In this document: piece by piece, positions 12,528 through 33,272 of the stretch
Numbering within the stretch: the first letter of the stretch is position 1
Layout of the letters: each line of letters begins with the position of its first letter
DNA from: Donghicola mangrovi
GTDB taxonomy: Bacteria; Pseudomonadota; Alphaproteobacteria; Rhodobacterales; Rhodobacteraceae
Length of the DNA: 44,230 nt
NCBI RefSeq assembly: GCF_013377535.1
Contig: NZ_JABCJE010000017.1
Span: 1-44,230, forward strand
Direction: 5' to 3'
Program-made: the position numbers and the translations under genes
Notes under the pieces: generated by a model
The model's database searches: none
The model's input: only the letters and a program-made list of their open reading frames with translations
Told to the model about the DNA's origin: nothing

Positions 12528-12704
12528 TCACTCCTTCCGGCGGGCGCTGCGGAGGGTATAGAGCAGACCGGCAACCGCGATCAGGCCCAGACCGTGCATG
12601 GGCGACAGGACCCAGTGTGCAGCCCCGTTCAGGGCTGCGTCGTGACCGGGGTGCGCTGCGGCGGCGGTTGCACTCAGGAAAAGAGCGGGAATTGCGTATT
12701 TCAT
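12528..12704 (-). CDS. Small exported/membrane protein between hupL and hupC
   Basis: A 58-codon gene not named in the classical hup operon. The product has a signal-like N-terminus (MKYAIPALFLSATAAAA), then HPGHDAA after a plausible AxA cleavage site. A second hydrophobic stretch (about residues 36-51, MHGLGLIAVAGLLYTL) ends in a basic RSARRKE tail that would stay in the cytoplasm. A GGAG ribosome-binding site sits 7-8 bases before the ATG. The stop is 3 bp before the hupC start and the ATG is 15 bp after the hupL stop, so it is co-transcribed. It resembles the small DUF6732-type proteins (signal plus HPGH plus one membrane helix) I recall from Rhodobacteraceae. Its function is unknown; a role in membrane attachment of HupSL-C or metal handling is speculation. 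Confidence 0.75.
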   Translation of the reverse strand: MKYAIPALFLSATAAAAHPGHDAALNGAAHWVLSPMHGLGLIAVAGLLYTLRSARRKE

Positions 12705-12719
12705 GGGTGAACTCCGGTA

Positions 12720-14510: not shown

Positions 14511-14513
14511 GGC

Positions 14514-15602: not shown

Positions 15603-15609
15603 AACTGGT

Positions 15610-15614
15610 CCTCC
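15610..15614 (-). promoter_or_regulatory. Ribosome-binding site supporting the TTG start of hupS
   Basis: A perfect GGAGG on the minus strand, 7 bases before the TTG at 15602. It decides the start: no comparable site precedes the longer frame, and homologous HupS proteins begin at this point. Confidence 0.8.
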
Positions 15615-15634
15615 CCTGACTGGATCGATTCCGT

Positions 15635-15658
15635 CGGAATGCGATTGCATACATTCCG
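15635..15658. promoter_or_regulatory. Inverted repeat in the hupS leader
   Basis: Perfect 7-bp arms (CGGAATG / CATTCCG) with a 10-bp spacer, 33 bp upstream of the hupS start codon. It could be an operator near the transcription start or a leader hairpin. I do not recognise the motif. Confidence 0.4.
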
Positions 15659-15747
15659 TCAGGCTAAACTTCGGACAGGTGACAGTTTCGATCAAAGCGA
15701 ATGGGGGCGCAGTGGGTGCGGATTTAATATGCTTTCAAATCATGGGT

Positions 15748-15758
15748 TTGCTGCGCAA
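15748..15758. promoter_or_regulatory. Candidate HupR-binding site TTG-N5-CAA upstream of hupS
   Basis: TTGCTGCGCAA matches exactly the TTG-N5-CAA palindrome bound by Rhodobacter capsulatus HupR far upstream of its hupS promoter. It is centred about 151 bp upstream of the hupS start codon. Chance occurrence in this 230-bp gap is roughly 5 percent, so position and context carry the call. The AT-rich stretch just beside it (15738-15750) matches the IHF consensus with one mismatch, which is weak evidence for DNA bending as described in R. capsulatus. Confidence 0.6.
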
Positions 15759-15833
15759 AATCGCTCAATTTCTGCGGGTGCGTGCGGATGGGGGGTTGCC
15801 AGCTTTCCATCCGGTTGGACGGATACTTTCCGG

Positions 15834-18062: not shown

Positions 18063-19486
18063 CAGTGGACCGTGCAAACCATGCAGGGGTCAAAGCTGCG
18101 GACGATGTGCTGGACGGACAGGGGGGTATCCTCGCCCTCGGTCACAGGGGCGCCGACCAAGGCTGCCTCGACCGGACCGGGGGTGCCGCCCCCATCGCGA
18201 GGGCTGAAATTCCACGTGGTAGGTGCAATGATCTGATAGCTGCTGATCGCGCCGTCCTGAACGGTGATCCAGTGGCCCAATGCGCCCCGCGCTGCCTCGA
18301 CCACACCCACGCCAGAGCCATTGGCGGGCAGGGTCACCTGATCCATGAACCGCTGTTCGGGATGGATATCGCGCAGCAGGCGCTCCATCTCCAACTGGGT
18401 CAAAGCAATCTCCAGCAGCCGCCCGATGACCCGCGCCCTGACGCCGCCCTCAGCCGCAAGCGCCCGCGCCAAGGGGTGGCCGACCACCACCTGCCGCGCC
18501 AGTGCGCCCGTTTCAAAGGTCCGACCGCCGAGGCGCGGCGCCTTGCACCAGCTGTAGGCATCCTCGCGCAGCATCTCATCAGGGATCGTTTCGCCTACGC
18601 GGGGATGGGCCGTGCTCCCAAGCATCCATGCGTGGCTGATATCCTCGGCGATGGCGGTGAAATCCACGGGGGCCTCGGTGCCGTTGTCCCACGTGCCGCC
18701 CCTGAATACGCGCCCGTCTGGCAGGGGGTAGGCGCCAAAGGACAGATACCGCCCCGTTCCGCGCCCCATCGCCCCTGTGCCGGTCGCGGCGGCCACCTGT
18801 AGGAACAGGGCAACATCGCCGCCAGTCCAGCCTTCCAACTGCTCTACCGTTTCTAGGCCCGCGAAATCCTCTAGCTTGCCGCCAAAGGTTTCGGCCTCCA
18901 GATACCGGCGGAAGGCTTGCAGCGTCGCGCCGATCCGGATCAGATCGCGCGCCGTGGGGGTGCGGGTCACGCCGCCGGGCTGGATGGCCAGCGTGTGGGG
19001 CCACTTGCCCCCCAGCATCCCGACAACGTGCATCAACTCGGCCCGCGCCTCGACCGCGCGTCGCAGGGCGCTGCCTTGGCCAGCGGTAAAGCGGTTCACG
19101 ACCGTCCCGTGCCAGTCCGCCCCCGTATACCCCGCCCGCGCATAGTCGGGCATGAAGAACAGGTTGAAATGGGTCATGTGGTCCGAGACATTCTCGATCA
19201 TATGGAGCAGGGCTGCGACCTTGGCCCCCTCGGGCGCGGGCTGGACCCCTGCCAGATCGGCCAGCGCCAGCGCCGCCGCCGCCGATTGGCTGATTGAGCA
19301 AATCCCGCAGATGCGCGGGGTGATGGTCAGCGCGTCCAGCGGCCCTTTTCCCAGCATCATCCGTTCAAATCCGCGAAACAGAGGGGAGTTGGCGTGGGCC
19401 GCAGCGACGGCTCCGTCCTGCACATCCAGCCGGATTTCCAGATCGCCTTCGACGCGGTTGAAAGGGCCAACAAGAAGGGTCGTCAT
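18062..19486 (-). CDS. hupV: Regulatory (sensor) hydrogenase large subunit HupV
   Basis: The 474-residue catalytic subunit of the H2 sensor. NiFe ligands: RICGIC (Cys60, Cys63) and a terminal DPCMVC. The protein ends directly at CTVH with no cleavable extension, the hallmark of HupV/HoxC, so no HupD-type peptidase is needed. Ile62 and Phe110 occupy the positions of the bulky pair that narrows the gas channel in Ralstonia HoxC and is linked to oxygen insensitivity. The ATG at 19486 overlaps the hupU stop (ATGA). The frame extends upstream to 19597 inside hupU, but those residues are not hydrogenase-like. Confidence 0.96.
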   Translation of the reverse strand: MTTLLVGPFNRVEGDLEIRLDVQDGAVAAAHANSPLFRGFERMMLGKGPLDALTITPRICGICSISQSAAAALALADLAGVQPAPEGAKVAALLHMIENVSDHMTHFNLFFMPDYARAGYTGADWHGTVVNRFTAGQGSALRRAVEARAELMHVVGMLGGKWPHTLAIQPGGVTRTPTARDLIRIGATLQAFRRYLEAETFGGKLEDFAGLETVEQLEGWTGGDVALFLQVAAATGTGAMGRGTGRYLSFGAYPLPDGRVFRGGTWDNGTEAPVDFTAIAEDISHAWMLGSTAHPRVGETIPDEMLREDAYSWCKAPRLGGRTFETGALARQVVVGHPLARALAAEGGVRARVIGRLLEIALTQLEMERLLRDIHPEQRFMDQVTLPANGSGVGVVEAARGALGHWITVQDGAISSYQIIAPTTWNFSPRDGGGTPGPVEAALVGAPVTEGEDTPLSVQHIVRSFDPCMVCTVH

Positions 19487-20475
19487 GGTTTCGGCTTTCG
19501 CAGGGTCGGCGGGATGGTGATGCGGTCGGCGGTGGCGTTTTCGGCCAACCGTTTGGGGGTCGCGGCCTTGGACAAGGAGGCCAGCGCCATGAACCACGCC
19601 TTGGGCATGTCCGACGGCAGGCCCACGGGAATGCCCGCGAATTTCGGGGTTTCGGTAAAGCCGTGCCCGGGTTCCTCGAATTCAGGCGCGGTGCAATTGA
19701 TGCAAGGGTATCCGGCCCGCGTGCAACTGCCCGTGCCGTTCCAGCCACGGATGTTGCAGTCGCCCACGGCTTGGGTCCCGATGCAGCCCAGATGCTCCAT
19801 CATGCAGCCCATCTCGCACAGGTGCTCGGCGCTTGCTTTGTATTCGTAGAACTCGTTCTTGGGGCAGGCGTGGTGCACCAGATTGTCGGCGTAGAAACGG
19901 GGGCGGGCATAGCCGTCCAGATCGGCCGCCGACAGTTCGCCAGCCTTCAGCAGCAGCAGCGTTTCGGTGACCCAGTCGGGGTGCGTCGGGCAGCCCGCCA
20001 CGTTGATCACCGGCAGGCCCGATTTCGTCCGCCATTTCGCGGGGAACAGACCGCCCGCGTGGCCGCCATCGTATTGCAGACCAACCGCATCCGTCAGGTT
20101 CTCACCGGCCGAAGACACGCCGCCATATGCCGCGCAGGTGCCCACAGCGATCACGTGACTAGCCAAAGGGGCTAGCTCTCGCACCCATTCCATCATCGAC
20201 CGGCCGGTGCCCGCCATCATGTGGTAGCGCCCCGTACCGTTGGGGCCGCGCAGGATCGAGCCCTCGACACACAGAATGTCCAGCTTTTGTGCTCCGGTAA
20301 TGACGGCATCCAGAATGCGGCGCACTTCGGCACCCGTCGCTTCGGAGATCGAGGGATGCCACAGGAACTCCAGCCCCGCGCCATCCAGCAGGTCGATCAC
20401 ATTGGGGTCTTCGGCGCACAGCAGCGACATGGTGCAGCCACCGCATCCGCCCGATTGAAGCCATAGGATATTCAT
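19483..20475 (-). CDS. hupU: Regulatory (sensor) hydrogenase small subunit HupU
   Basis: A 330-residue iron-sulfur subunit of the cytoplasmic H2 sensor. It begins MNILWLQSGGCGGCTMSLL, with the proximal-cluster cysteines at the extreme N-terminus and no Tat signal, which separates it from HupS. GTCAAYGG has the standard cysteine spacing without the extra cysteines of HupS. The C-terminal third carries the medial and distal cluster cysteines (CEMGCMMEHLGC, CTRAGYPCINC). The ATG at 20475 overlaps the hupT stop by ATGA. An upstream in-frame start at 20511 would lie inside hupT and is not preferred. Confidence 0.96.
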   Translation of the reverse strand: MNILWLQSGGCGGCTMSLLCAEDPNVIDLLDGAGLEFLWHPSISEATGAEVRRILDAVITGAQKLDILCVEGSILRGPNGTGRYHMMAGTGRSMMEWVRELAPLASHVIAVGTCAAYGGVSSAGENLTDAVGLQYDGGHAGGLFPAKWRTKSGLPVINVAGCPTHPDWVTETLLLLKAGELSAADLDGYARPRFYADNLVHHACPKNEFYEYKASAEHLCEMGCMMEHLGCIGTQAVGDCNIRGWNGTGSCTRAGYPCINCTAPEFEEPGHGFTETPKFAGIPVGLPSDMPKAWFMALASLSKAATPKRLAENATADRITIPPTLRKPKP

Positions 20476-21800
20476 GTCTGATCTCCCCGCAGCAGGGTCA
20501 GCCGGAAACACGCCCCTTGGACCGAGGGCACCAGCTCCAGTGAGCCGCCGTGTTCTTCGGCGATCTTGTGGCTGATGGACAGGCCAAGGCCGGTGCCTTT
20601 GCCCACCTCTTTGGTGGTGAAGAAGGGGTCGAAAATCTTGGCGGCGGCGGTGTCGGGAATGCCGGGGCCGTTGTCGCTGATCTCGATCACCGCATGAGGG
20701 CCGTCATAGAAGCTGCGGATGGTCAGGGCCGCGTCATCCTGCTCTGCCATCGCGTCCACTGCGTTCTGCACAAGGTTCATGAGGACCTGCTGCACATGGC
20801 CCGCGCGGGCGCTGGCGATGCATGATGGCTCGCCCTCGAACGCGATGGTGACACGGCTTTTGCTGCCACGCTCCACCCAGTCGGCGGCGATACTGGCGGT
20901 GCGGACCAGATCGGTGGGGGCCAGTTCACCTGACCCTTCGGCGGACAGACGGCGCAGATCCTCGACGATGTTTTTCACCCGCTCGGCCCCATCGCGGGCC
21001 CCTTCGATAGCGGTGCGCAAGTTGCGCAGGTCGCGGTCCAGCTTCAGGGTGCCGCGCAGTTCGACCAGTTCCTCGCGCGGGGCGCCGGCCTGAACGCGGT
21101 CGAAATAGGTTTCGAACCGGTTGATGTATTTTTCCAGCGCGTGGGTGTTCGCGTAGACAAAGCTGATCGGGTTATTCAACTCGTGTGCCACACCGGCCAG
21201 CAGGCGGCCAAGCGAGGCCAGCTTTTCGTTGCGGACCAGTTGGGTCTGGGTCTGCTTCAGTTCTTCGTGGCTGGCCTCAAGCTCTGAATAAGCGCGGCGC
21301 AGTTCGCCCAACGGACGGCCCGTCAGGATCACACCCGCCCGCTTGCGACCGCCGCGCAGGCGCGGGGCGATGCGGAATTCCACGGGCTCGGGGCCGATGG
21401 TGGTGGTCAGCTCTGCCTCGACGGTGTTGTCGGCGCGTTGAGCCACACTGCGCGAAATGGCGGTGATCAGGTTCCCGCCCGAGGTGCCCTGCAGGAACCC
21501 CGCGATGGGTTGGCCGACCAGCTTTTCCACGGGCAGGCCCACGGCTTTGCAAAAGGACCGGCTGGCATCCGCGATGCACAGCGCGGTGTCGGTCACCACC
21601 AGATAGTCGCTGATCGAATGCATGATCGAGGACAGGAAAGTCCGCAGCGCCTCAAGCTCTGCGTTCCGCGTTTCCAGCTGTTCCTGATAGTCCACCAGCT
21701 CCGCATAGGTGCGGTCCACAGCCTGCATGACATCCACCCAAGCCGCATCACCGATGTCGGCGCGCAGGGAATCGGTAGACTGGAAGTGGTCCGGTGACAT
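20472..21800 (-). CDS. hupT: Hydrogenase sensor histidine kinase HupT
   Basis: A 442-residue soluble histidine kinase that, in R. capsulatus, phosphorylates HupR and so represses hupSL when H2 is absent; HupUV modulates it. A PAS domain spans about residues 53-165. The dimerisation/phospho-acceptor box GVAHELNNPISF places the phospho-histidine at His206. The HATPase domain has LMNLVQNAVDAM (N box), DNGPGIP (G1) and GKGTGLGLSI (G2). No membrane helix is present, in line with a cytoplasmic partner of HupUV. The ATG at 21800 is chosen because the longer frame to 22007 would run into betC. A betC terminator ends only 15 bp upstream. Confidence 0.95.
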   Translation of the reverse strand: MSPDHFQSTDSLRADIGDAAWVDVMQAVDRTYAELVDYQEQLETRNAELEALRTFLSSIMHSISDYLVVTDTALCIADASRSFCKAVGLPVEKLVGQPIAGFLQGTSGGNLITAISRSVAQRADNTVEAELTTTIGPEPVEFRIAPRLRGGRKRAGVILTGRPLGELRRAYSELEASHEELKQTQTQLVRNEKLASLGRLLAGVAHELNNPISFVYANTHALEKYINRFETYFDRVQAGAPREELVELRGTLKLDRDLRNLRTAIEGARDGAERVKNIVEDLRRLSAEGSGELAPTDLVRTASIAADWVERGSKSRVTIAFEGEPSCIASARAGHVQQVLMNLVQNAVDAMAEQDDAALTIRSFYDGPHAVIEISDNGPGIPDTAAAKIFDPFFTTKEVGKGTGLGLSISHKIAEEHGGSLELVPSVQGACFRLTLLRGDQT

Positions 21801-21814
21801 GGCTGCCCTATCGC

Positions 21815-21845
21815 AAAAAGACCCCGCGGGGGATGCCGCAGGGTC
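21815..21845 (-). terminator. Rho-independent terminator after betC, next to hupT
   Basis: On the minus strand, a 10-bp stem with one mismatch (GACCCTGCGG / CCGCGGGGTC), a 6-nt loop, then TTTTT. It would end betC transcription. The T run finishes 15 bp before the hupT ATG, so little room is left for a hupT promoter downstream of it. Any hupT promoter upstream must read through this hairpin. Confidence 0.85.
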
Positions 21846-21904
21846 CAACAGATTGAAACCAAAGGTCAAGGGCCAGCAGATTGCCACTAATGGAAGGGGC
21901 GCTT

Positions 21905-23428
21905 TCACTCTCCTCGGGGGTAGCGCTTGCTTTCCTCTAGGATGTTCAGGTCCATGTGGTTGCGCATATAGCGCTCCGAGGCCTTTTGCAGGGGCTGGTA
22001 ATCCCACGGATAGTAGTCGCCGTTGCGCAGGGCCTCATAAACGACCCAGCGGCGGGCCTGACTGAACCGCACATCCGCGTCAAATCGGTCCAGATCCCAG
22101 CGGGCATCGGCCTGCGCCCGGAAATCGGCCAGAACCGAAGCGTAGTCGGGGTTTTCGGCCAGATTGGTCAGCTCGTGCGGGTCGTTTTCCAGATCGAATA
22201 GCTGCTCGGGGTCCAGTTTGCAGCGGGTGTATTTCCACTGCCCCTGACGCAAGCACACCAGCGGCGCATAGGACGCCTCGGCGGCGTATTCCATCGCCAC
22301 GGCAGATTCGCGTTTCACCCCTTGGCCATAGGGCACCAGCGACTCGCCGGTGGTCCAGGGCATGACTTCTTCCATGCTGACGCCGGCCAGATCACACAGG
22401 GTCGGGCAGATGTCGATGTTGGACACGGGCTCTGTCACCAGACCGGCCTGCATCTGGGGCGCGCAGACCATGATCGGCACGCGGCTGGAGCCTTCGAAGA
22501 AATTCATTTTGAACCACAGGCCCCGTTCCCCCAGCATGTCGCCGTGGTCCGAGACGAACAGGATCACGGTGTCCTCGGTCTGGCGGGTGCCGTCCAGCGC
22601 CTCCATGATCTGGCCTACCTTGTCATCCAGATAGGTGATGTTGGCGAAATAGGCGCGGCGTGAGCGGCGGATGTCATCCTCGGTGATGTCGAAGTTGCGC
22701 CAGTCGTTGGCGTCGAAGATGCGCTTGGAGTGGGCGTCCTGTTCCTCATAGGGGATGGCGCCGATGGTGGGCATCAGGTGCTCGCAATCCTCGTACATGT
22801 CCCAGTATTTCTTGCGGGCCACATACGGGTCGTGCGGGTGGGTAAAGCTGACGGTTAGACACCACGGGCGCGCATCCAGCCCGCGCCCCAGATCATAGAT
22901 CTTGCGGACGGCGTTGTAGGCGACCTCGTCGTCATATTCCATCTGGTTGGTGATCTCGGCCACGCCTGCGCCGGTCACGCTGCCCATGTTGTGGTACCAC
23001 CAGTCGATACGCTCGCCGGGTTTGCGATAATCCGGGGTCCAGCCGAAGTCGGCGGGGTAGATGTCGGTGGTCAGGCGCTCTTCGAACCCGTGCATCTGGT
23101 CAGGTCCGACGAAATGCATTTTACCCGATAGGCAAGTCTGATAGCCCGCACGGCGCAAATGGTGCGCATATGTCGGGATTGACGAAGTGAATTCGGCGGC
23201 GTTGTCATAAACACCCGTATCACTGGGCAGTTGGCCCGACATAAAGGAGGCGCGGCCAGGTGCGCACAAAGGGGACGCCGTGTAGGCATTGCGGAACCGC
23301 GTCGAGCGTTCTGCCAGCTTTTTCAGGTGCGGGGTGTGCAGCCAGTCTGCCGGCCCGTCAGGAAAGAGCGTCCCGTTGAGCTGGTCGACCATAATAATCA
23401 GGATGTTTGGGCGTTTGGTCTCGGTCAT
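21905..23428 (-). CDS. betC: Choline sulfatase BetC
   Basis: A 507-residue type I sulfatase that hydrolyses choline-O-sulfate to choline and sulfate in the cytoplasm; no signal peptide is visible. The N-terminal metal-binding part (PNILIIMVDQ) is followed by the sulfatase signature LCAPGRASFMSG. Cys55 is the residue converted to formylglycine by a separate enzyme not in this window. Further active-site segments are GKMHFVGPDQ and FVSDHGDMLGE. Length and the C-terminal YPWDYQPLQKASERYMRNHMDL are typical of BetC. The ATG at 23428 (MTETKRPN) is preferred over 23503. It is divergent from choXWV, so sulfate ester cleavage and choline uptake are probably co-regulated. Confidence 0.95.
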   Translation of the reverse strand: MTETKRPNILIIMVDQLNGTLFPDGPADWLHTPHLKKLAERSTRFRNAYTASPLCAPGRASFMSGQLPSDTGVYDNAAEFTSSIPTYAHHLRRAGYQTCLSGKMHFVGPDQMHGFEERLTTDIYPADFGWTPDYRKPGERIDWWYHNMGSVTGAGVAEITNQMEYDDEVAYNAVRKIYDLGRGLDARPWCLTVSFTHPHDPYVARKKYWDMYEDCEHLMPTIGAIPYEEQDAHSKRIFDANDWRNFDITEDDIRRSRRAYFANITYLDDKVGQIMEALDGTRQTEDTVILFVSDHGDMLGERGLWFKMNFFEGSSRVPIMVCAPQMQAGLVTEPVSNIDICPTLCDLAGVSMEEVMPWTTGESLVPYGQGVKRESAVAMEYAAEASYAPLVCLRQGQWKYTRCKLDPEQLFDLENDPHELTNLAENPDYASVLADFRAQADARWDLDRFDADVRFSQARRWVVYEALRNGDYYPWDYQPLQKASERYMRNHMDLNILEESKRYPRGE

Positions 23429-23586
23429 CTCGAGGTGTCCTCTCCCGGTTGATACGAATGCCATGCGCTTTGTTGTGCGACACATCGCACTGTTCCACCG
23501 CAAACCGCATAAAATCTGGCCCGTTGCGGCGCGAAACCACGCCTTTCAGGCTTTTTCGTTGACTCCAACAGCGAGACCAGATTTTT

Positions 23587-23637: not shown

Positions 23638-24552
23638 ATGAAATTGAAGGCTACAATCTCGGCACTGGCGGTACTGGCAGCAGCCCCCGCATTCGCAGAT
23701 TGCTCCAAGGTAACGTTCTCGGACGTTGGCTGGACCGACATCACCACCACCACTGCAACCGCGACCCACATCCTCGAAGGTCTGGGCTACAAGGTTGACA
23801 CCAAAGTGCTTTCGGTTCCCGTAACTTTCGCTTCGCTCGAAAGCGATGACGTTGACGTGTTCCTGGGCAACTGGATCCCCGCACAGTCGGGCGCGATCCA
23901 GCCCTACCTCGACAAAGGCGAGATCGACCAGCTGGTCGTGAACCTCGAAGGCACCAAATACACCCTGGCCGTTCCCACCTACACCTATGAGCGCGGCCTG
24001 CAGTCCTATGCTGATATCCACAAGTTCGAAGAATCGCTGGGTGGCAAAATCTACGGCATCGAGCCCGGCAACGAAGGCAACGACTACCTGATCGGCCTGA
24101 CCAAGGACAACAAGTTCGACCTGAAGAACTTCGAAGTCGTGGAAAGCTCGGAGCAGGGCATGCTGGCGATGGTTGACCGCGCCTACAAAGACGAGAAGGA
24201 CGTTGTTTTCCTGGGTTGGGAACCCCACCCCATGAACGCGAACTTCAGCCTGAAATACCTGCCCGGCGGCGAAGACTTCTTTGGCGGTGAAGGCGTTGTC
24301 TACACCACCACCCGCAAAGGCTATGCAGACGAATGCCCGAACGTTGGCACCCTGCTGAAGAACATGAAGTTCAGCCTGGCCATGGAAAACGAAGTCATGG
24401 GCAAAATCCTGAACGACGGCGAAGAAGCTGGCGACGCGACCGAAGTCTGGCTGAAAGCCAACTTTGATCAGGTCGAGCCCTGGCTGGCAGGCGTGACCAC
24501 TCTGGACGGTGGCGACGCGGTTGCCGCAGTCAAAGCGCATCTGGGTCTCTGA
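23638..24552 (+). CDS. choX: Choline ABC transporter substrate-binding protein ChoX
   Basis: A 304-residue periplasmic choline-binding protein of the glycine-betaine/OpuAC family. A Sec signal peptide covers residues 1-20 (cut after AFA). The motif FSDVGWTDITTTTATATHILEGLGY and the segment DVDVFLGNWIPAQ supply part of the aromatic binding box; FLGWEPHPMNANF supplies more. Codon use is biased toward a small set of codons (AAC, GAA, CTG, GGC), suggesting high expression. It is followed by an intercistronic hairpin and choW. Confidence 0.95.
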   Translation: MKLKATISALAVLAAAPAFADCSKVTFSDVGWTDITTTTATATHILEGLGYKVDTKVLSVPVTFASLESDDVDVFLGNWIPAQSGAIQPYLDKGEIDQLVVNLEGTKYTLAVPTYTYERGLQSYADIHKFEESLGGKIYGIEPGNEGNDYLIGLTKDNKFDLKNFEVVESSEQGMLAMVDRAYKDEKDVVFLGWEPHPMNANFSLKYLPGGEDFFGGEGVVYTTTRKGYADECPNVGTLLKNMKFSLAMENEVMGKILNDGEEAGDATEVWLKANFDQVEPWLAGVTTLDGGDAVAAVKAHLGL

Positions 24553-24567
24553 TCGCGAACCTAACAA

Positions 24568-24595
24568 GGGGTCTGGCATCACTCTGTCAGGCCCC
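24568..24595 (+). terminator. Intercistronic hairpin between choX and choW
   Basis: An 8-bp stem (GGGGTCTG / CAGGCCCC, one G-U pair) with a 12-nt loop, 16 bp after the choX stop and with no T run. It probably stabilises the choX message or attenuates, giving more binding protein than permease. Confidence 0.5.
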
Positions 24596-24633
24596 GTCAA
24601 AGGTTACATTTTACGACAGAGAACGAGAGACAG

Positions 24634-25473
24634 ATGCTTGATTGGTTAACTGATAATAAGATTCCAGTAGGCGCCGCTGCCGCAGACGTATTCGACTTTC
24701 TGCGCGACAACGCCGAATTCTTCTTCGAAGGCATGTCCAATGCGATGGAGGGGCTGATTGCCGCCATCCTATGGTTATTGCAGACGCCGCACCCGCTGGT
24801 TGTGGTGGCGTTCTTTGTTGCACTGACATGGGTGATCCAGCGCAGCTGGAAGACCTGCCTGTTCGTTTTCCTTGGGTTCCTGTTCATCCTGAACCAGGAC
24901 TACTGGGAGGAAACGACGGAAAGCATCACGCTGGTGATGTCGGCCTGTGTGGTCTGTATGCTGGTCGGGGTCCCGATCGGGATTTTCGCGGCCCACAAGC
25001 CCAAGTTCTATACCTATCTGCGTCCGATCCTTGACCTGATGCAGACGCTGCCGACCTTTGTGTACCTGATCCCCGCGATCGTGTTTTTTGGCATCGGGAT
25101 GGTGCCGGGCCTGATCGCGACCGTGATTTTCGTGCTGCCCGCACCGATCCGCCTGACCTATCTGGGTGTGTCCTCTACGCCGCAGCAACTGCTAGAGGCC
25201 GCGCGTGCCTTTGGCGCGACCCCCAATCAGGTGCTGTTCAAGGTCGAGCTTCCCTATGCCCTTCCGCAGATCATGGCGGGCCTGAACCAGACCATCATGC
25301 TATCGCTGTCGATGGTTGTGGTCGCAGCGCTGGTTGGCGCGGATGGTCTGGGTGTGCCTGTGGTGCGCGCGCTGAACCAGGTGAACACCAAGCTCGGGTT
25401 TGAGTCCGGCTTCGTGATCGTGGTCGTCGCCATCATGCTGGACCGTATGCTGAGCAAAGGGGATCAGAAATGA
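24634..25473 (+). CDS. choW: Choline ABC transporter permease ChoW
   Basis: A 279-residue inner-membrane permease of the ProW/OpuAB family. About six hydrophobic helices are present from residue 40 onward. The cytoplasmic EAA-type loop (LEAARAFGATPNQVLFKVELPYALPQIMAGL) lies near residue 185-215 and docks on ChoV. The N-terminal 35 residues are polar. Its end overlaps choV by ATGA, so the two are translationally coupled. Confidence 0.95.
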   Translation: MLDWLTDNKIPVGAAAADVFDFLRDNAEFFFEGMSNAMEGLIAAILWLLQTPHPLVVVAFFVALTWVIQRSWKTCLFVFLGFLFILNQDYWEETTESITLVMSACVVCMLVGVPIGIFAAHKPKFYTYLRPILDLMQTLPTFVYLIPAIVFFGIGMVPGLIATVIFVLPAPIRLTYLGVSSTPQQLLEAARAFGATPNQVLFKVELPYALPQIMAGLNQTIMLSLSMVVVAALVGADGLGVPVVRALNQVNTKLGFESGFVIVVVAIMLDRMLSKGDQK

Positions 25474-26501
25474 GCACTGCTGTAAAATTCGACAACGTCT
25501 CGATTGTCTTTGGTGACAACCCCAAAAGCGCTCTGCCCCTGATGGACAACGGGGCCGACCGTGGCACCGTCCAGCAGGAATGCGGTCAGGTCTTGGGCGT
25601 GCACAACTGCTCGCTCGAGGTCGGGACCGGTGAAATTCTGGTGCTGATGGGCCTGTCGGGTTCGGGCAAATCGACCCTGCTGCGGGCCGTGAACGCGCTG
25701 AACCCCGTCGTGCGTGGCTCGGTTCTGGTGAATGACGGCAACCAGATGGTCGACATCACCCACGCAGACAAAGCGAACCTGCGCCGCATGCGTCTGAGCC
25801 AGATCGCCATGGTCTTCCAGCAGTTTGGTCTGCTGCCGTGGCGCACTGTGCGCGAGAACGTGCAGCTGGGTCTGGAACTTGGCGGCATGGACAAGGCCGA
25901 GCGCGATTCCAAGGTGGAAAAGCAGCTGGAGCTTGTAGGCCTGTCCCAGTGGGCCGACCGCAAGGTGGGTGAGCTTTCTGGCGGTATGCAGCAGCGTGTG
26001 GGTCTGGCCCGCGCGTTCGTGACCGACGCGCCGATCCTGCTAATGGACGAACCTTTCAGTGCGCTAGACCCGCTGATCCGCGCCAAACTGCAGGACGAAC
26101 TTCTGGAGCTTCAGCAGAAGCTGAACCGCACCATCATCTTCGTGAGCCACGATCTGGACGAGGCGTTCAAGATCGGCAACCGCATCGCGATCATGGAAGG
26201 CGGCCGGATCGTCCAGTGCGGCACTCCGCAAGAAATCTTCTCGAAACCCGCAGATGATTACGTGACCGAGTTTGTGGCGCACATGAACCCGCTGGGTGTT
26301 CTGCGCGCGGGAGATATCATGTCGGCGGCGTCGGGAATGGCGGTTGATCAGGTCGATGCAGCCATGCCCGTGGGCGAGGTTATGCAGCGCATCATGGGCA
26401 CCGAGGCGCCCTTGGCCGTGGTGAACGGCGGTCAAATCGTCGGTCAGATCACCAAGGACGACATTCTGCGCAATCTGGTGGACCCGCGCAGCGCGGCCTA
26501 A
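25470..26501 (+). CDS. choV: Choline ABC transporter ATPase ChoV
   Basis: A 343-residue ATPase of the ProV/OpuAA family. Walker A GLSGSGKST, Q-loop FQQFGLLPWRTV, ABC signature LSGGMQQRVGLARA, Walker B ILLMDEPFSALD and H-loop VSHDLDEA are all intact. After about residue 270 there is a short regulatory extension resembling a single degenerate CBS-like repeat (PLAVVNGGQIVGQITKDDILRNL). Its TAA stop overlaps the stop codon of the convergent ABC ATPase gene on the other strand. Confidence 0.95.
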   Translation: MSTAVKFDNVSIVFGDNPKSALPLMDNGADRGTVQQECGQVLGVHNCSLEVGTGEILVLMGLSGSGKSTLLRAVNALNPVVRGSVLVNDGNQMVDITHADKANLRRMRLSQIAMVFQQFGLLPWRTVRENVQLGLELGGMDKAERDSKVEKQLELVGLSQWADRKVGELSGGMQQRVGLARAFVTDAPILLMDEPFSALDPLIRAKLQDELLELQQKLNRTIIFVSHDLDEAFKIGNRIAIMEGGRIVQCGTPQEIFSKPADDYVTEFVAHMNPLGVLRAGDIMSAASGMAVDQVDAAMPVGEVMQRIMGTEAPLAVVNGGQIVGQITKDDILRNLVDPRSAA

Positions 26502-27130
26502 CCGATTTTCAGGATCGGGCCACCGGCGGCCTCGGCTTCGGCGGGGTCGTGGGTGACCATCACAACCGGCAGATTTCTGGTGCGGGCGCGGGTGAAAACC
26601 AGCGCCCGTATCTGTTCGCGCAGTTCAGGGTCCAGACCGCTGAACGCCTCGTCCAGCAGCAGAGCTTCTGGTTCACTTAGCAGCATCCGCATCAGGGCAA
26701 CGCGCGCCTTTTGCCCGCCGGACAGGGTCGCGGGATCACGGTCGTAAAAACCCGCCAGTCCGATGTCGTTCAGGGCCTCGAAGATGCGGGCTTTGCGCTG
26801 TTGGCGTGTGCCCCCAGCGCGCAGGCCAAAGGACAGGTTTTCCCCGACGCTTAAATGCGGAAACAGCAGGTCGTCCTGAAACAGGATACCAACGCGGCGC
26901 TGTTCCGTCGGCAGGTCAGTGATGTCTCGGCCGTTCAGGATGACCCGCCCGGTCGTGGTAAACCCATCGGCCAAGGTGCCGGTCAGCGCGGCCAGTAACG
27001 TGGACTTTCCCGCCCCCGACGGCCCCATAATTGACAGGACTTCGCCCGCCGGAACGTGGGTGTCGATCTGCACCAAAGGCGCCCCATGCCGAGAGATGGC
27101 AAGTGAATTCAGGGTTAATCCCGTGGTCAT
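26498..27130 (-). CDS. YnjD-like ABC transporter ATPase
   Basis: A 210-residue compact ATPase. Walker A GPSGAGKST, Q-loop FQDDLLFPHLSV, signature LSGGQKARVALMRM and Walker B ALLLDEAFSGLDPE are intact. The short Q-loop variant FQDDLLFPH is typical of the YnjD/ThiQ-like group. The ATG at 27130 is chosen because it lies 2 bp after the permease stop; the frame stays open far upstream, but those residues are an out-of-frame shadow of the permease. Its TAG overlaps the choV stop on the opposite strand. Substrate unknown. Confidence 0.9.
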   Translation of the reverse strand: MTTGLTLNSLAISRHGAPLVQIDTHVPAGEVLSIMGPSGAGKSTLLAALTGTLADGFTTTGRVILNGRDITDLPTEQRRVGILFQDDLLFPHLSVGENLSFGLRAGGTRQQRKARIFEALNDIGLAGFYDRDPATLSGGQKARVALMRMLLSEPEALLLDEAFSGLDPELREQIRALVFTRARTRNLPVVMVTHDPAEAEAAGGPILKIG

Positions 27131-27132
27131 GG

Positions 27133-28815
27133 TCACTCCGGTCTCAGGGCGCGGCGGTTGCGGAACAAGATGCGCGGCAGGGTTAACGCAATGGCAAAGG
27201 GGATCAGCGCGGCGCAGGTCTGCGCGATCCCGTAGACCCCAATGGCGCGGCGGTTGCCGCCCGATGTCAGGGCGACGGCCTCGGTGGTCAGGGTGGCGAT
27301 GCGGCCCCCTCCGGCCAAGAGGGTGGGCAGGTATTGCCCCACGGACACGGCGCACCCCACGGCGGCGGCGGTCAGGATCGGGGTCAGAAGCATAGGCAGG
27401 CGAATGCGGAACAGAACGCGGTTCGGACTGGCACCCAAGGCACGTCCAACGGTGCCATACCGCCGATCCCAAGCGCGCCACGGATCGGACAGGGACAGGA
27501 ACACATAGGGGATAACAAAGACCAGATGGCTCAGGATCACCACCCAGCGCCCCGAGGTTAGCCCCCAATTCAGCAGCAGCACTTGAAGGCCCGGTAGGAA
27601 GGCGATCTGCGGGACCAGTAGCGGCAGATACAGCAGCGCCATCGCGCGGGTGGTCGGGCGCAGGTTGTGGCGGGCCTCGGCCTCTAGGCTGCCGATGCAC
27701 AGGATCAGGGCGATCAGCGTGGTGGTCAGAGCGATGATCGCGGTCTCTTGGATCGGTGCGCCGAGCGCAGGTCCGAACCGTTGCCAGTTGCGCAGGGTTA
27801 ATGGGGCGGGCAGGGCGTCGGGAAAGCTCCACTGTCCGGCAAAGGACCACACCAGCAGGCCCGCGATGCCCGTCAGAACCACAGCGGCAGATGCAGTGCC
27901 AAGGCCGCTTGCGATGGGGCGCAGAAGGCCGATCCCATGGCTGCGTGCGCCGCTGGTGATCCAACGCCGGCCAAGGGCAGCGATCAGATGTTCGCCCACC
28001 CACCAAACCGCCAGCGCGCCGATGACCAAGGCCAGTTGCAGCAGGGCACCGGCCGCCCCCAGCAGTCGCAGGCTCAGGTCGGGGTCGGACATCCAGCGCA
28101 GGATTTGCACGGATAGCGTGGTTGGCAGCGTCGGCCCGAGGATCATCGCCACATCCACAACCGTCATCGAATAGGCCAGCACCACGTACACGGGCAGGCG
28201 GATTTGGCGGTAGACGGCGGGGAATACGGTTTTCAACCACGCGCCGGACAGGCTGTGCCCCAAGGCGCGGGCGATGAGCAGGGATTGGCCGGCTCGGATC
28301 TGTCCCAGCGCGGCCAGTGACATGAGCAGTAGAAAGGGCGCCTCTTTCACAGCGAGGCCGAGGGTCAGCGCAATACCCCACGGGTCATTCAGGATGAGCA
28401 GGTCCGGCGGTTGCGCCCAACCCGTGGCCCACGGGCTGAACAGGCGGGCGATCCAACCGGAAGGGGCAATCAGGAACGCCAGCCCGAACGCCGCAGCGGC
28501 ATGGGGCATCGAAAGCAGCGGGGACAGAAGGCGGCGCAGGACCGCCAGCCCCCGCGTGCCGTGCAGTTGGGACAGGATCAGGACCACCAGCGCCAGCGCC
28601 ATTAGGGTCGCACCGAAACCGCTGGTGATGCTTAGGGCAGAGGCGTCAGTCAGGCCGGGCCACGCCAAGAGGTCCGCTATGGCCTGATCAGGATCGGCCC
28701 CCGCAATGTGGACCAACCCCAGAAGGGGGGCGATCACCCCCCAGAGCCCCGCTCCGACCGGCAGCAGCAATGCGGCCAGCGTCAGGCGGGGAACCCATGT
28801 CAGACTGGGCCTCAC
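27133..28815 (-). CDS. YnjC-like fused double permease of ABC importer
   Basis: A 560-residue membrane protein with two permease halves in one chain, each with a BPD_transp_1 loop: LIARALGHSLSGAWLKTVFPAVYRQIRLPV in the first half and VGRALGASPNRVLFRIRLPMLLTPIL in the second. This fused layout is typical of YnjC (and of ThiP/FbpB-type iron or thiamine permeases). A GTG start at 28815 overlaps the upstream stop as GTGA, giving tight coupling; an ATG at 28839 lies inside the preceding gene. About a dozen hydrophobic helices can be traced. The transported compound is not known for this family. Confidence 0.88.
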   Translation of the reverse strand: MRPSLTWVPRLTLAALLLPVGAGLWGVIAPLLGLVHIAGADPDQAIADLLAWPGLTDASALSITSGFGATLMALALVVLILSQLHGTRGLAVLRRLLSPLLSMPHAAAAFGLAFLIAPSGWIARLFSPWATGWAQPPDLLILNDPWGIALTLGLAVKEAPFLLLMSLAALGQIRAGQSLLIARALGHSLSGAWLKTVFPAVYRQIRLPVYVVLAYSMTVVDVAMILGPTLPTTLSVQILRWMSDPDLSLRLLGAAGALLQLALVIGALAVWWVGEHLIAALGRRWITSGARSHGIGLLRPIASGLGTASAAVVLTGIAGLLVWSFAGQWSFPDALPAPLTLRNWQRFGPALGAPIQETAIIALTTTLIALILCIGSLEAEARHNLRPTTRAMALLYLPLLVPQIAFLPGLQVLLLNWGLTSGRWVVILSHLVFVIPYVFLSLSDPWRAWDRRYGTVGRALGASPNRVLFRIRLPMLLTPILTAAAVGCAVSVGQYLPTLLAGGGRIATLTTEAVALTSGGNRRAIGVYGIAQTCAALIPFAIALTLPRILFRNRRALRPE

Positions 28816-30011
28816 TTGACCCCGTAGCGGGTGGTCCACTCGGCCTTGAGCATTTCCATCCAGCTGGGATGGGGCTCGGGCAGGGCGGTGCCAAGTTCTG
28901 CGGGTGTCAGGGTCGCCATGCCTAGTTCAATCGCGTCAAAGGCAGCTTTCTGCTCGTCGGACAGGGTCTTCATGTCCAGAACGGTGCCGTAGCCAAGGTT
29001 CAGTGGGTCCAGACCGTGGGCCTGCGCCTCGGGGGACAGGATGAAGTTCGCCACAACCATCGCCCCCGCCGCTGCATTCGCGTTGTAGGGGATCGCCAGA
29101 TAGCTGGCGTTGCCCAACGTGCCCTTGTCCAGAACATAGGTGCGGACGGTGTCGGGCAGCTCGAAATTGGCGATGGCGGTCGAAGCCTCGCCGGGGCTGA
29201 AGCTGATGGCCAGATCAATCTCGCCGTCGTTCATCAGCTGGATTTGCTGGGGGCCGGTCTGGGGATAGGCTTGGCCTTGGCGCCACAGAACGGGGGTCAG
29301 TTTATCCAGAAAATCCCACAGGGGCGCGGTGACTTTGTCGAACGTCTCGGGCGTGGCGGGCTGCATCAGGGGGGCCGGATCATCGGTCAGGTCCAGCAGA
29401 GCCTGCTTCAGGAACGTCGCGCCAAGGAAATCGGGCGGCTGGGGATAGGTGAAGCGGCCGGGATGAGCCTGCGCCCACTCCAGAATGGCGTTCATCGAGG
29501 GCAGGGGCGCGTCGATGTCGGCGGTGTCATACATGAAAACAACCTGCGCCATGGCCCACGGGCTCTCGTAGCCGTCGGTCGGGATGGTGAAATCGGTCTG
29601 GACGGTTTTGCCTGCGGTGTCGACGTACTGCCAGTTGGGCAGCTGTTCCGCGAACGGGCCGAACAGCAGGTCCTGCCGCTTCATCGAGGCAAAGTTTTCA
29701 CCGTTGAGCCAGATGATGTCGACCGCGCCGCCTTCGTTCTTGCCGGCTTGCTGTTCGGCCAGAACGCGGGCAACGGCGTCGGCGGTGTCGGTCAGTTTCA
29801 CATGTTCTAGGGTGACGTCGTATTCCTCGGCCACGCGGTCACCGACCCACGCGATAAAGTCGTTGGTAGTGGTCGAGCCGCCCCATGCGTTCCAGTACAC
29901 GGTCTGACCGCGCGCCTCTTCCAGAACGCTTTCCCAGTTGGTCGGATCGGGTTGGGCCATAGCTGTGGTGGCCAGCAGCGTCGCCGCCAAAGCCGCAGTG
30001 ATGCGTTTCAT
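28812..30011 (-). CDS. YnjB-like ABC transporter substrate-binding protein
   Basis: A 399-residue exported protein. A Sec signal peptide ends after about residue 19 (LLATTAMA). The mature part starts with WESVLEEARGQTVYWNAWGGSTTTNDFIAWVGDRV, a characteristic YnjB/COG4134 opening, and continues as a two-lobed binding protein of the extracellular solute-binding class. The ATG at 30011 overlaps the preceding stop by one base (TGATG). The frame is open to 30383, but that part is a shadow of the phosphatidyltransferase gene. The ligand is unknown. Confidence 0.9.
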   Translation of the reverse strand: MKRITAALAATLLATTAMAQPDPTNWESVLEEARGQTVYWNAWGGSTTTNDFIAWVGDRVAEEYDVTLEHVKLTDTADAVARVLAEQQAGKNEGGAVDIIWLNGENFASMKRQDLLFGPFAEQLPNWQYVDTAGKTVQTDFTIPTDGYESPWAMAQVVFMYDTADIDAPLPSMNAILEWAQAHPGRFTYPQPPDFLGATFLKQALLDLTDDPAPLMQPATPETFDKVTAPLWDFLDKLTPVLWRQGQAYPQTGPQQIQLMNDGEIDLAISFSPGEASTAIANFELPDTVRTYVLDKGTLGNASYLAIPYNANAAAGAMVVANFILSPEAQAHGLDPLNLGYGTVLDMKTLSDEQKAAFDAIELGMATLTPAELGTALPEPHPSWMEMLKAEWTTRYGVK

Positions 30012-30643
30012 CAAATGCTCTCCTCGTTTCGGGTATTGGGCCCGAACACCTGTCGGGCCAGCAGAATGCGGGAAATGGCCGTCACAAAGCACAGCGCGCC
30101 AAACACATAGGACGCGGGCGCAAACAGGACAGGCCATAGGCAGATCAGGGCAAAGAAACCGATGGTCTCGGCACCCTCGAGGATGCCGCCGGTGAAATAG
30201 AGCGACTTGGCCCCGCGCTTGGCGGTCTGCATCCCGTGCTTTTCCGCCAGAATCGCGTAGCCAAGGAAACTGGCCCCGTTGAAGTAAAAGCTCGTCAGCA
30301 GGAACGCCCCAGCCAGCCCGTTCGCGGCAGGGTCCAGCACGACGAACCCCAGGGGGATCGCGCCATAGAACAGAAAATCGCAAGTGATATCGAGGTAGCC
30401 GCCGAAATCCGTGCCCTTAGTCGCGCGGGCGATGGCGCCGTCCAGACCGTCGGCCAGACGGCTGGCCAGCATCAGCGCCAGCCCCAGATTGGTCAGCCCC
30501 ACGGCGATAAATCCCGCAGCGGCTAACCCCAGCGCCAGCCCCGCCAGCGTGACGCCGTTCGCACTGAAACCGGCGCGCGCCAACCCACGGCCGAGCCGGT
30601 TCAGGGTGGGGTCAATCAGAGGGCGAAGGGCTGCATCGAACAT
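30011..30643 (-). CDS. CDP-alcohol phosphatidyltransferase, YnjF-like
   Basis: A 210-residue membrane enzyme of the CDP-alcohol phosphotransferase family, which joins a CDP-linked lipid or other alcohol to a second alcohol. The full catalytic motif D-x2-DG-x2-AR-x8-G-x3-D-x3-D is present (DGLDGAIAR...FGGYLDITCD), with about six hydrophobic segments. It is the first gene of a four-gene operon with the YnjBCD-type importer, as ynjF accompanies ynjBCD in E. coli. The ATG at 30643 is preferred (MFDAALRPLIDP); a GTG at 30679 would add 12 basic residues. Neither has a strong Shine-Dalgarno. The acceptor alcohol is unknown. Confidence 0.88.
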   Translation of the reverse strand: MFDAALRPLIDPTLNRLGRGLARAGFSANGVTLAGLALGLAAAGFIAVGLTNLGLALMLASRLADGLDGAIARATKGTDFGGYLDITCDFLFYGAIPLGFVVLDPAANGLAGAFLLTSFYFNGASFLGYAILAEKHGMQTAKRGAKSLYFTGGILEGAETIGFFALICLWPVLFAPASYVFGALCFVTAISRILLARQVFGPNTRNEESI

Positions 30644-30893
30644 GGGCGGGAATTTGCTGCGAGGTCGGCGGGTTGTCACCCGTTTTGTAACAGTCTTGCA
30701 GGAAACCGACAGGATCGTGAACGAGGATTCCTAGAAAAATCCAACAGATATCGTTAGTCACAGGGGAACCTTTGGCGGTGTGTATGTGTTGCCTAAGTGT
30801 AATTCTCCGTTCCGGCACAGGCTGCATGTGCACCGGCCCGTCCCCTCGGGTGCCGAACAAAACGAACTCAAGAACAAGAAGAAACTGCACGAC

Positions 30894-33272
30894 ATGATCC
30901 GACCCCTCTCGACCCTGTCGAAGCTGATGCTGGCCTGTATCGTGGCGCTGACCCTTGTCTGGTCCGGTGCCTTGCTGGCCCAAGAAGCAACCACCGATAC
31001 TGCTGCATCGACTGAAACGGCGACCTCTGCCGAAACCGATAAACTGATCGAGGTGCTGCAAGACGACGGCACCCGTGACCGCCTGATCGAGGCTCTGAAG
31101 GCCATTGATCAGGCCCCCGAAACCACAACCACCACTGCGGACACCGCTGAAACGCCCGTCGAACAGGCCGCCCAAAAGGCCGAAGCCGTCGCGGCCAGCG
31201 ACGAGGCTACCTTTGGCAAGCAGATCGCGACCTTTACCAAATCGCTGGCCGAGGAGTTGATCGACGAAGGCCAGCAGGCCTGGAGCCAAGTGGTGTTCTC
31301 TTTCTCGACCATCACGTCACTGGGCAGCGGGGATGCCGCTGATCTGTTCGCCACGTTCAAGGACGTGGCTTTCGTGATCCTGTCCACCGTCGCGGTGTTT
31401 CTGGTGCTGCGCGGGTTTGCGACGACCTACTACACCCGTCTCGGGGCCAAGGCCTCGGACAGTCCGTTCCTGAAATCGGTTGGGCTGTTCTTCTTGTCCG
31501 GCTTCATCGACGTGCTGGTGGTGCTGGTGTCGTGGCTGACGGGCTACATTTTGGCGCTGACCGTCTTTGGCGAGTTTGGCCAGATCGGCATCCGTCAAAC
31601 CCTGTATCTGAACGCCTTCCTCGTGGTCGAGCTGATCAAGGTGGTGGTGCGTCTGGTCTTTTCCCCCACGACGTCGAGCCTGCGGATGTTCCCGTTGGAT
31701 GACCCGACCGCGCGCTATATTTCGCGCCGTTTGAACCTGCTGATCGGCCTGCTTGGCTATGGTCAGCTGCTGGTCGTGCCGGTGATTAATCAGGACGTAT
31801 CGTATATGACGGGCCGCGCGGTGACGCTGGTTCTGGCGCTGTTGGTGCTGGGGATCATCGTGGCGACCGTGCTGCGCAACCGTTCGAACGTGGCCAGCTA
31901 CCTGCTGGGTCAGGACGAAGACCGCGCCCCCCGTGGGGCGGCCCGCGTGCTGGCGCGCAACTGGCATTGGCCGGTGCTGCTGTATCTGGCTGGCGTGTTC
32001 TTGATCGTGATGACCCGCTCGAACGCGGTGGTGTTCGACACCTTTGTGAACACGGCGCAGGTCGCGCTGGTGGTTCTGCTGGGGATGCTGGCGTCCGGTT
32101 GGCTGACCCACATGGTGCGTCACGGCATCCATCTGCCCGACAGCTGGAACGCCCGCCTGCCGCTGCTGCAAACGCGCCTGAACAGCTTTGTGCCCAAGAT
32201 CATGGCAGGTCTGCGCGTGCTGATCTTCTTGTTCGTGCTGGTCTTTGCGCTGAACGCTTTGGGCGTGTTTGATCTGGGGGCGGCTTTGGCAACCCCGACC
32301 GGCGTGTTCCTGTCCGGCAAAGCGGTGAGTGTGGTGCTGATCCTTGCGGCGTCCTGCCTGATCTGGCTGGCGATGACCTCTTGGGTGGATTACCGCCTGA
32401 ACCCCGATTGGGGCACCATCGCCAGCGCCCGAGAGGCAACCCTGCTGACCCTGCTGCGCAATGCGGCGACCATTGCGCTGATCATCATTACCCTGATGTT
32501 CACCCTGTCCGAGATCGGACTGGACATCGCGCCGCTGCTGGCCTCGGCCGGGGTGCTGGGTCTGGCCATCGGTTTCGGTGCCCAGAAGATGGTGCAGGAT
32601 ATCATCACCGGTATCTTCATCCAGTTCGAGGGCGTGATTAACGTCGGTGACGTGATCACCCTGAACGGCACCACCGGTGTGGTCGAAAAGCTGACCATCC
32701 GCTCGGTGTCCCTGCGCGACTATCAGGGCGTTTACCACATGATCCCCTTCAGCAGCGTCGATATGGTGTCGAACTACATGAAGGACTACGGCTACTTTGT
32801 TGCCGACATGGGCGTCGCCTACCGCGAGAGCGTCCCCGAGGTGAAAGAAGCCATGTTCGCCGCCTTTGAGGAACTGGTGTCCGATCCCGACAACAAGGTT
32901 AAAATCGTTGGCGATCTGGAATGGATGGGTCTGAACGCGTTTGGCGACAGTGCCATCGTTCTGCGGGCGCGGATCAAGTGTCGCCCCGGCGATCAGTGGG
33001 GCATCGGCCGCGCGTATAACGAAATCGTCAAACGGATCTTTGACGAGCGCGGGATCGAGATTCCCTATCCCTATCAGACCCTCACCTTTGCCGAGGCCAA
33101 GGATGGCAAAGGCCAATCCGTCGGCGTCAAGATGGAGGAGAAGGTCGTCAAAACCATCAAGCCCGAGTCCAAGCCTTCGATCGTGGATCATACCCACGAC
33201 CCCAAGGAACTGGATTTGCCCGATCACACCGACGACGATGTTGGCGATGACGGGGATGATGGCGGGCGGTAA
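30894..33272 (+). CDS. Large MscS-family mechanosensitive channel
   Basis: A 792-residue inner-membrane channel protein, far longer than E. coli MscS (286). A signal-like hydrophobic N-terminus (residues 1-31) precedes a Thr/Glu/Ala-rich periplasmic segment of about 100 residues. About ten membrane helices follow in two blocks. The MscS pore and beta domain begin near residue 545 (LLASAGVLGLAIGFGAQ, then FIQFEGVINVGDVITLNG). The C-terminal tail is acidic (Asp/Gly-rich). Such channels release solutes on hypo-osmotic shock, consistent with the nearby choline import genes. The ATG at 30894 (MIRPLSTL) is preferred over a GTG at 30780. I see no clear promoter motif in the 214-250 bp upstream. Confidence 0.9.
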   Translation: MIRPLSTLSKLMLACIVALTLVWSGALLAQEATTDTAASTETATSAETDKLIEVLQDDGTRDRLIEALKAIDQAPETTTTTADTAETPVEQAAQKAEAVAASDEATFGKQIATFTKSLAEELIDEGQQAWSQVVFSFSTITSLGSGDAADLFATFKDVAFVILSTVAVFLVLRGFATTYYTRLGAKASDSPFLKSVGLFFLSGFIDVLVVLVSWLTGYILALTVFGEFGQIGIRQTLYLNAFLVVELIKVVVRLVFSPTTSSLRMFPLDDPTARYISRRLNLLIGLLGYGQLLVVPVINQDVSYMTGRAVTLVLALLVLGIIVATVLRNRSNVASYLLGQDEDRAPRGAARVLARNWHWPVLLYLAGVFLIVMTRSNAVVFDTFVNTAQVALVVLLGMLASGWLTHMVRHGIHLPDSWNARLPLLQTRLNSFVPKIMAGLRVLIFLFVLVFALNALGVFDLGAALATPTGVFLSGKAVSVVLILAASCLIWLAMTSWVDYRLNPDWGTIASAREATLLTLLRNAATIALIIITLMFTLSEIGLDIAPLLASAGVLGLAIGFGAQKMVQDIITGIFIQFEGVINVGDVITLNGTTGVVEKLTIRSVSLRDYQGVYHMIPFSSVDMVSNYMKDYGYFVADMGVAYRESVPEVKEAMFAAFEELVSDPDNKVKIVGDLEWMGLNAFGDSAIVLRARIKCRPGDQWGIGRAYNEIVKRIFDERGIEIPYPYQTLTFAEAKDGKGQSVGVKMEEKVVKTIKPESKPSIVDHTHDPKELDLPDHTDDDVGDDGDDGGR

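Follow-up and report, generated by a model that had tools for sequence, protein, structure and literature searches.

Why are the genes of an ATP-binding cassette (ABC) importer packed against a gene for a putative lipid-type transferase? The question is raised by four genes of Donghicola mangrovi (Rhodobacteraceae) that resemble Escherichia coli ynjF, ynjB, ynjC and ynjD (F, B, C and D in what follows). They lie in a 44,230-nucleotide (nt) stretch of contig NZ_JABCJE010000017.1, which was analysed as a whole and is referred to here as the window. An original prediction, made from the letters of the window, proposed that the importer takes up an alcohol or its phosphate which the transferase attaches to a lipid. 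The analysis reported here points to a common function of importer and transferase, for which such an uptake-to-lipid route is plausible.

Packing of the transferase and importer genes

The four genes are read along the minus strand in the order F-B-C-D, with the following coordinates and domain or family scores:

30011..30643, minus strand: F, YnjF-type cytidine diphosphate (CDP)-alcohol phosphatidyltransferase, 210 amino acids (PF01066, 29.9 bits, cut-off 22)
28812..30011, minus strand: B, YnjB-type periplasmic solute-binding protein, 399 amino acids (NF008633, 559 bits, cut-off 203)
27133..28815, minus strand: C, YnjC-type ABC permease, 560 amino acids, GTG start (PF00528, 34.6 bits, cut-off 26.4, scored on the protein from the longer GTG start at 28839)
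26498..27130, minus strand: D, YnjD-type ABC ATPase, 210 amino acids (PF00005, 114.9 bits)

The packing is as originally described: F and B overlap by 1 nt (TGATG), B and C overlap by 4 nt (GTGA), and a gap of 2 nt separates C from D. A second GTG, at 28839, is also open as a start for C. The importer had further been called fused to the transferase by translation; the overlaps suggest translational coupling at most, and the genes themselves are not fused.

Co-occurrence of YnjB and YnjF

The searches for YnjB and YnjF covered an order sample of 149 genomes and a phylum sample of 398 genomes, which share genomes of the window's own family (f1) and each cover a part of the species. YnjB was identified with NF008633, matches below its cut-off being dropped, and YnjF with a profile of its own, matches below 60 bits being dropped; the phylum searches scored the best few candidates of each genome (up to four for YnjB, seven for YnjF and two for the VTT fusion protein described below). 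In the order, YnjB was detected in 66 genomes and YnjF in 81, and both in 66, whereas in the phylum the corresponding numbers were 51, 60 and 49. YnjF was thus present in 66/66 and 49/51 YnjB-positive genomes. As these counts ignore the species tree, they are complemented by counts at genus level and with linkage removed. Among 213 genera, 30 contained both proteins, 2 only YnjB, 8 only YnjF and 173 neither; when genomes with linked genes were removed, YnjF was still found in 14 of 16 YnjB-positive genomes, compared to 11 of 347 others.

Because YnjF is nearly always present where YnjB is, YnjBCD seems to depend on YnjF, which itself is more broadly distributed. That the importer and the transferase function together is, on these observations, very probable, and their near-obligate co-occurrence joins two orphan annotations in a single pathway that can be tested. 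The original prediction had named rare co-occurrence as an outcome that would speak against it; the survey made here found the opposite, with the two kept together in several gene orders.

The genes for YnjB and YnjF lie at most 8 kilobases (kb) apart in 55 of the 66 order genomes and 35 of the 49 phylum genomes that carry both. In family f1, where the 30 highest-scoring of 66 YnjB loci were inspected, F adjoins B in 27 (23 with the same-strand order F-B-C-D and 4 divergent), and the packing seen in the window is therefore no local accident. Outside this family, F was found near BCD in 25 of 40 phylum YnjB loci, either as B-C-D-F (19) or in convergent orientation (6), which brings the arrangements seen to F-B-C-D, B-C-D-F, divergent and convergent. 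Gene calls in unannotated loci came from a simple caller, and the neighbour lists used throughout are approximate. In a FastTree phylogeny of 155 YnjF sequences, which was built from short proteins and leaves 48 of 149 inner branches open, the state of being linked or solitary switches at least 20 times, with 7 switches forced by the starred branches; without 12 solitary rows that might stem from contig edges, 18 switches were counted, 4 of them forced.

Predicted activity of YnjF

F shares 46% identity with E. coli YnjF in a gapless alignment of 193 amino acids, and its sequence places it in the YnjF subfamily of the CDP-alcohol phosphatidyltransferase superfamily, with transfer of an alcohol phosphate from a CDP-alcohol as the predicted reaction. 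The motif of this superfamily is D-xx-D-G-xx-A-R-x8-G-xxx-D-xxx-D. In F the motif is complete (D65..D68-G69..A72-R73..G81..D85..D89), which indicates catalytic competence, and the four catalytic aspartates are unchanged across 40 aligned YnjF sequences. The spacing after the AR pair is x7 in F and in most members; the x8 of the general motif occurs only in a YnjF subgroup, formed by families f40 and f69. In profile searches members of the subfamily scored between 222 and 327 bits and the other listed matches 59 bits or less, and the best NCBIfam match of F reached 59 bits (cut-off 180). The AlphaFold2 model of F has a mean predicted local distance difference test score (pLDDT) of 90.6, with a low-confidence loop at residues 144-152 that contains the invariant K146.

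Besides YnjF, the genome of the window encodes three CDP-alcohol transferases: PgsA (132 bits, cut-off 109), PssA (110 bits, cut-off 107) and an enzyme named Pcs-like by its best family match alone (233 bits, under the cut-off of 350). With these enzymes glycerol-3-phosphate, serine and probably choline are already served as acceptors.

The YnjBCD importer and the thiamine annotation

B, C and D are assigned to the YnjBCD importer (COG4134-4136 / NF008633) on the grounds that the binding protein scores over its cut-off and that permease and ATPase are encoded next to it. Identities to the E. coli proteins are 43% for B, 51% over 177 amino acids for D and 31% over 418 amino acids for C. Transport is probably inward, as the periplasmic binding protein suggests. 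The AlphaFold2 model of B (pLDDT 93.1) has the fold of binding proteins of the 2-aminoethylphosphonate, polyamine, AfuA and ferric type. The 50 fold neighbours listed, at 12-20% identity, include binders of 2-aminoethylphosphonate-type compounds (4r6y), spermidine, glucose-6-phosphate, iron, agropinic acid and thiamine, a diversity that keeps the ligand from being read off the fold. A single-sequence search at E 0.01 retrieved no solved relative of YnjB, and comparison of the YnjB profile with solved structures gave weak, partial-length matches only (best E 0.0002). W43, N103, N106 and W152 of YnjB are unchanged in 30 sequences.

YnjBCD might import thiamine or a thiamine-like compound, with YnjF as an incidental neighbour, and KEGG names the system in this way. 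In line with this, a thiamin-binding protein ranks 44th among the fold neighbours of YnjB, the ATPase scores with ThiQ models (157 of 245 bits) and the permease weakly with ThiP (32 of 395 bits). Both scores are under the cut-offs, however, and B matches NF008633 and no ThiB family, so that identity with ThiBPQ was rejected. Control by thiamine pyrophosphate (TPP) riboswitches is common, though not universal, among thiamine transporters; a search of 15 loci, those of the window and of E. coli among them, gave no TPP riboswitch at gathering score. Since the co-occurrence with YnjF would also be left unexplained, we consider a thiamine importer very unlikely.

Choline as a candidate substrate

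The placement of the unit beside choline genes had made a choline-like or polyol substrate a candidate. D overlaps the convergent choV gene by 4 nt at its 3' end, and the choline block consists of the following:

23638-26501, plus strand: choX, choW and choV (the latter at 25470-26501), with TIGR03414, TIGR03416 and TIGR03415 above cut-off
21905-23503, minus strand: choline-sulfatase-type gene (PF00884 with Choline_sulf_C)

ChoX was found in 106 of the 149 order genomes and is commoner where YnjB is present (61/66 genomes, compared to 45/83 others), which would suit uptake of a choline-like compound for lipid synthesis. Nevertheless, among the 61 genomes with both proteins only that of the window has them within 60 kb on one contig, although draft contigs could hide some cases, and no ChoX match was obtained at 80 named YnjF loci. 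Moreover, the Pcs-like enzyme mentioned above is encoded elsewhere in the genome of the window, and E. coli, of which phosphatidylcholine is not a normal lipid, has the unit as well. The suggestion drawn from gene placement was thus not borne out, and a conserved choline-to-phosphatidylcholine route was rejected. Choline is unlikely as the imported compound, and we hold the whole notion of choline-like uptake for lipid synthesis to be extremely improbable.

VTT/DedA proteins, reductases and family-specific neighbours

Outside the family of the window, a VTT-domain relative of YdjX/YdjZ (DedA/TMEM64) was encoded within the stretch examined at 19 of 40 YnjB loci. The VTT/DedA protein is therefore a common third partner in these families, which fits lipid work, and it offers a candidate context for membrane proteins of the YdjX/YdjZ type. 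In f40, f62 and f69 the protein forms a fusion with a MerA-like flavin reductase; DUF547 proteins are encoded alongside at 8 loci, and a TonB receptor and a fatty-acid hydroxylase at 7 loci each. Of 398 genomes, 57 encode the fusion protein; YnjF is present in 24 of them, and the fusion gene is linked to that of YnjF in 16, of YnjB in 14 and of either in 20. Ten listed matches that scored under 900 bits were not counted, among them a second match in G432 and a 513-bit homolog in the genome of the window. A YnjF gene that lacks YnjBCD beside it can also adjoin the fusion gene (L111-L114, L207). Plasmid p111 of Pseudooceanicola algae carries a compact run of six genes that overlap by 4 nt; they encode the VTT-reductase, the four proteins F, B, C and D, and an oxidoreductase of the TIGR03169 family (369 bits against a cut-off of 310).

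The 513-bit homolog of the window genome (G000:C1:168910-170913) is distant in sequence, contains one TGA within the matched stretch, and lies about 10 kb from pgsA (C1:158201), away from YnjF. Oxidoreductases of the TIGR03169 family ("N-terminal to SelD") that lack a SelD part are repeatedly encoded beside VTT-reductase, YnjF and YnjBCD genes, and the matches scored were the following (cut-off 310):

L217, 11496-12608: TIGR03169, 369 bits
L081, 930-2027: TIGR03169, 391 bits
L113, 11958-13082: TIGR03169, 292 bits

Other neighbours are specific to single families and not general. In two genomes of family f6 (L112, 3947-8493; L113, 7368-11913), YnjF and the VTT-reductase fusion are accompanied by a 143-amino-acid protein without a family match and by a nucleoside transporter of the NupC type (272 bits of a 442 cut-off in L112; an 80% identical relative in L113). 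Here NupC takes the place that YnjBCD has in other genomes, possibly a swap of transporters and a hint of nucleoside-like cargo. Two genera of family f43 have bufferin-type genes (MbnB/TglH/ChrH, DUF2063, DoxX) immediately next to YnjB (L067, 9147-11355, tested with Pfam; L081, 9109-11320, assigned by eye). Relatives of TIGR04282/04283, named "arsenosugar biosynthesis glycosyltransferase" in NCBIfam, occur beside YnjBCD in four f51 loci (L068, L070, L088, L097) and beside YnjF in G492 (L115); profiles were applied in L068 and L115, and the other loci were assigned by similarity. An arsenosugar lipid as the general function was rejected: ArsS (TIGR04167) was over its cut-off in 1 of 63 genomes (48 with YnjB or YnjF and 15 with neither), namely G492, which has YnjF and lacks YnjB, and the genome of the window was under the cut-off.

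Some of these neighbours would agree with an importer for a metal or metal chelate, in which the MerA-like reductase and the TIGR03169 protein reduce the metal while YnjF and the VTT protein protect the envelope. The reductase fusions, which score under the MerA cut-off, the bufferin-type genes, the TonB receptors and the iron-binding proteins among the fold neighbours of YnjB all point in this direction. Such metal-type neighbours are nonetheless limited to a few families. Ferric-binding proteins hold iron through adjacent tyrosines, and in a comparison by sequence alignment only, the YnjB profile has P/S where 7w3w has its Tyr-Tyr pair, so that ferric-ion binding by YnjB was rejected. Metal import is thus unlikely.

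The main alternative to consecutive steps is that importer and transferase serve a shared physiological state, such as envelope or redox stress, with different molecules: the importer would supply a nutrient or redox compound, YnjF would adjust the membrane, and both would be kept together by need or regulation. The flavin reductases and sulfur or redox proteins encoded nearby in other families (MerA-like VTT fusions, TIGR03169, the sulfurtransferase YnjE, the AhpD-like YnjA) are consistent with it, and so is the finding of YnjF alone. E. coli ydjXYZ-ynjABCD appears in an FNR regulon list (PMC3688515), and 1.6- and 1.4-fold increases of ynjA and ynjB with BaeR, perhaps indirect, are reported (PMC2731931). 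However, YnjF is kept with YnjB even where the genes are unlinked (14/16), and the recurrence of tight coupling speaks for a direct link. We regard a shared physiology without consecutive steps as less likely than not.

A proposed route from uptake to lipid

The reading that we propose treats F-B-C-D as one functional unit, in which YnjBCD would import a polar precursor and YnjF would couple it to a CDP-lipid, and we judge its chances to be evenly balanced. In the periplasm YnjB would bind a compound that is small and polar, YnjC and YnjD would bring it into the cell, and the membrane enzyme YnjF would use the compound or its phosphate as the acceptor for the phosphatidyl group of a CDP-lipid, presumably CDP-diacylglycerol, yielding a minor phospholipid. 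In relatives outside the family of the window, a VTT/DedA protein, sometimes fused with the MerA-like reductase, may move or process the product.

Several observations weigh against this reading. YnjF was found without YnjB in 15 of 81 (order) and 11 of 60 (phylum) YnjF-positive genomes, and the acceptor of YnjF therefore cannot depend on YnjBCD alone. Two YnjB-positive genomes, G232 and G414, lack YnjF, as confirmed by a looser search in which all candidates were scored, and no YnjF is encoded in the 17 kb around YnjBCD on Sinorhizobium meliloti pSymB. At the 80 named YnjF loci, 14 of which are short contigs, YnjB lies within the stretch in 34; the solitary YnjF genes (54 loci without YnjBCD nearby) are often placed beside apaG-like (13), metZ-like (15) or dcd-like (14) genes, apaG having been tested with a profile in one locus and the other two named by eye. 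Neither the window nor 79 of these 80 loci contain the VTT partner, and 33 of the 57 genomes with the VTT-reductase fusion lack YnjF. Co-regulation or transfer as a cassette could also underlie the linkage, and matches covering at least 80% of YnjB occur in 79 plasmid records. Finally, the fold neighbours of YnjB span many ligand types, and no result names a ligand or a lipid.

A broader version would extend the proposed route to a dedicated salvage-to-lipid pathway found in E. coli and widely among Proteobacteria, in which an imported head group that the cell does not make itself (or its phosphate) would be turned by YnjF into a minor phospholipid, flipped by the VTT/DedA protein where there is one, with the fused or adjacent flavin reductases carrying out a redox step on it. 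We put this forward tentatively and consider it rather improbable. If true, several uncharacterised E. coli genes (ydjX, ydjZ, ynjBCD and ynjF) would gain a lipid and a function. With importer and transferase in one pathway, the ligand of YnjB would predict the head group of the lipid expected to be lost in a ynjF mutant.

Other features of the window

Upstream of F, and beyond the choline block, the window contains the following:

30780-33272, strand opposite to F: MscS-family mechanosensitive channel, 830 amino acids, beginning just upstream of F
2457-22007: large [NiFe]-hydrogenase region with HypD, HypF, a CobW/HypB-type gene, HybE joined to rubredoxin, two large-subunit-type genes, a small subunit, a sigma-54 response regulator and a PAS histidine kinase

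The MscS-family channel has matches at 2 of the 80 named YnjF loci (63 and 137 bits).

Comparison with known systems

Our literature search returned no functional study of YnjF, YnjBCD or their pairing. Published studies group E. coli ynjABCDEFI together with suf genes by genetic interactions (PMC3930520), list YnjBCD as the top enriched functions in one Marinobacter clade (PMC9207381), and assign YdjX/YdjZ to the DedA/Tvp38 family (PMC7818093, PMC3836016).

The solved folds nearest to the model of F are those of mycobacterial phosphatidylinositol phosphate (PIP) synthase/PgsA1, AF2299 and DIPPS. These enzymes have the fold and the catalytic motif in common with F, whereas identity is 17-24% among the top 19 matches and the motif spacing differs (AR-x7-G in F). 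In a similar manner, the 2-aminoethylphosphonate, polyamine, AfuA and ferric ABC importers share with YnjBC the binding-protein fold and the SBP_bac_8 and BPD_transp_1 families, while YnjB, at 12-20% identity to them in the 50 matches listed, has a family of its own, NF008633.

In E. coli K-12 the genes run ydjX-ydjY-ydjZ-ynjA-B-C-D-E, and ynjF lies beside ynjE but on the other strand. As the two are convergent, ynjF is a neighbour and not a member of the operon, and the originally stated partnership in E. coli holds for the families and their adjacency, not for a common operon. The ynjB-ynjF region is core in this species, being at least 80% covered in 5364 of 5426 genomes. In the window F opens the unit, and relatives of YdjX/YdjZ or of the VTT-reductase are absent, whereas in E. 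coli ydjX and ydjZ (VTT/DedA), ynjA and ynjE stand beside ynjBCD. The same four families as in the window are nevertheless adjacent in E. coli (ydjXYZ-ynjABCDE/ynjF), at 31-51% identity.

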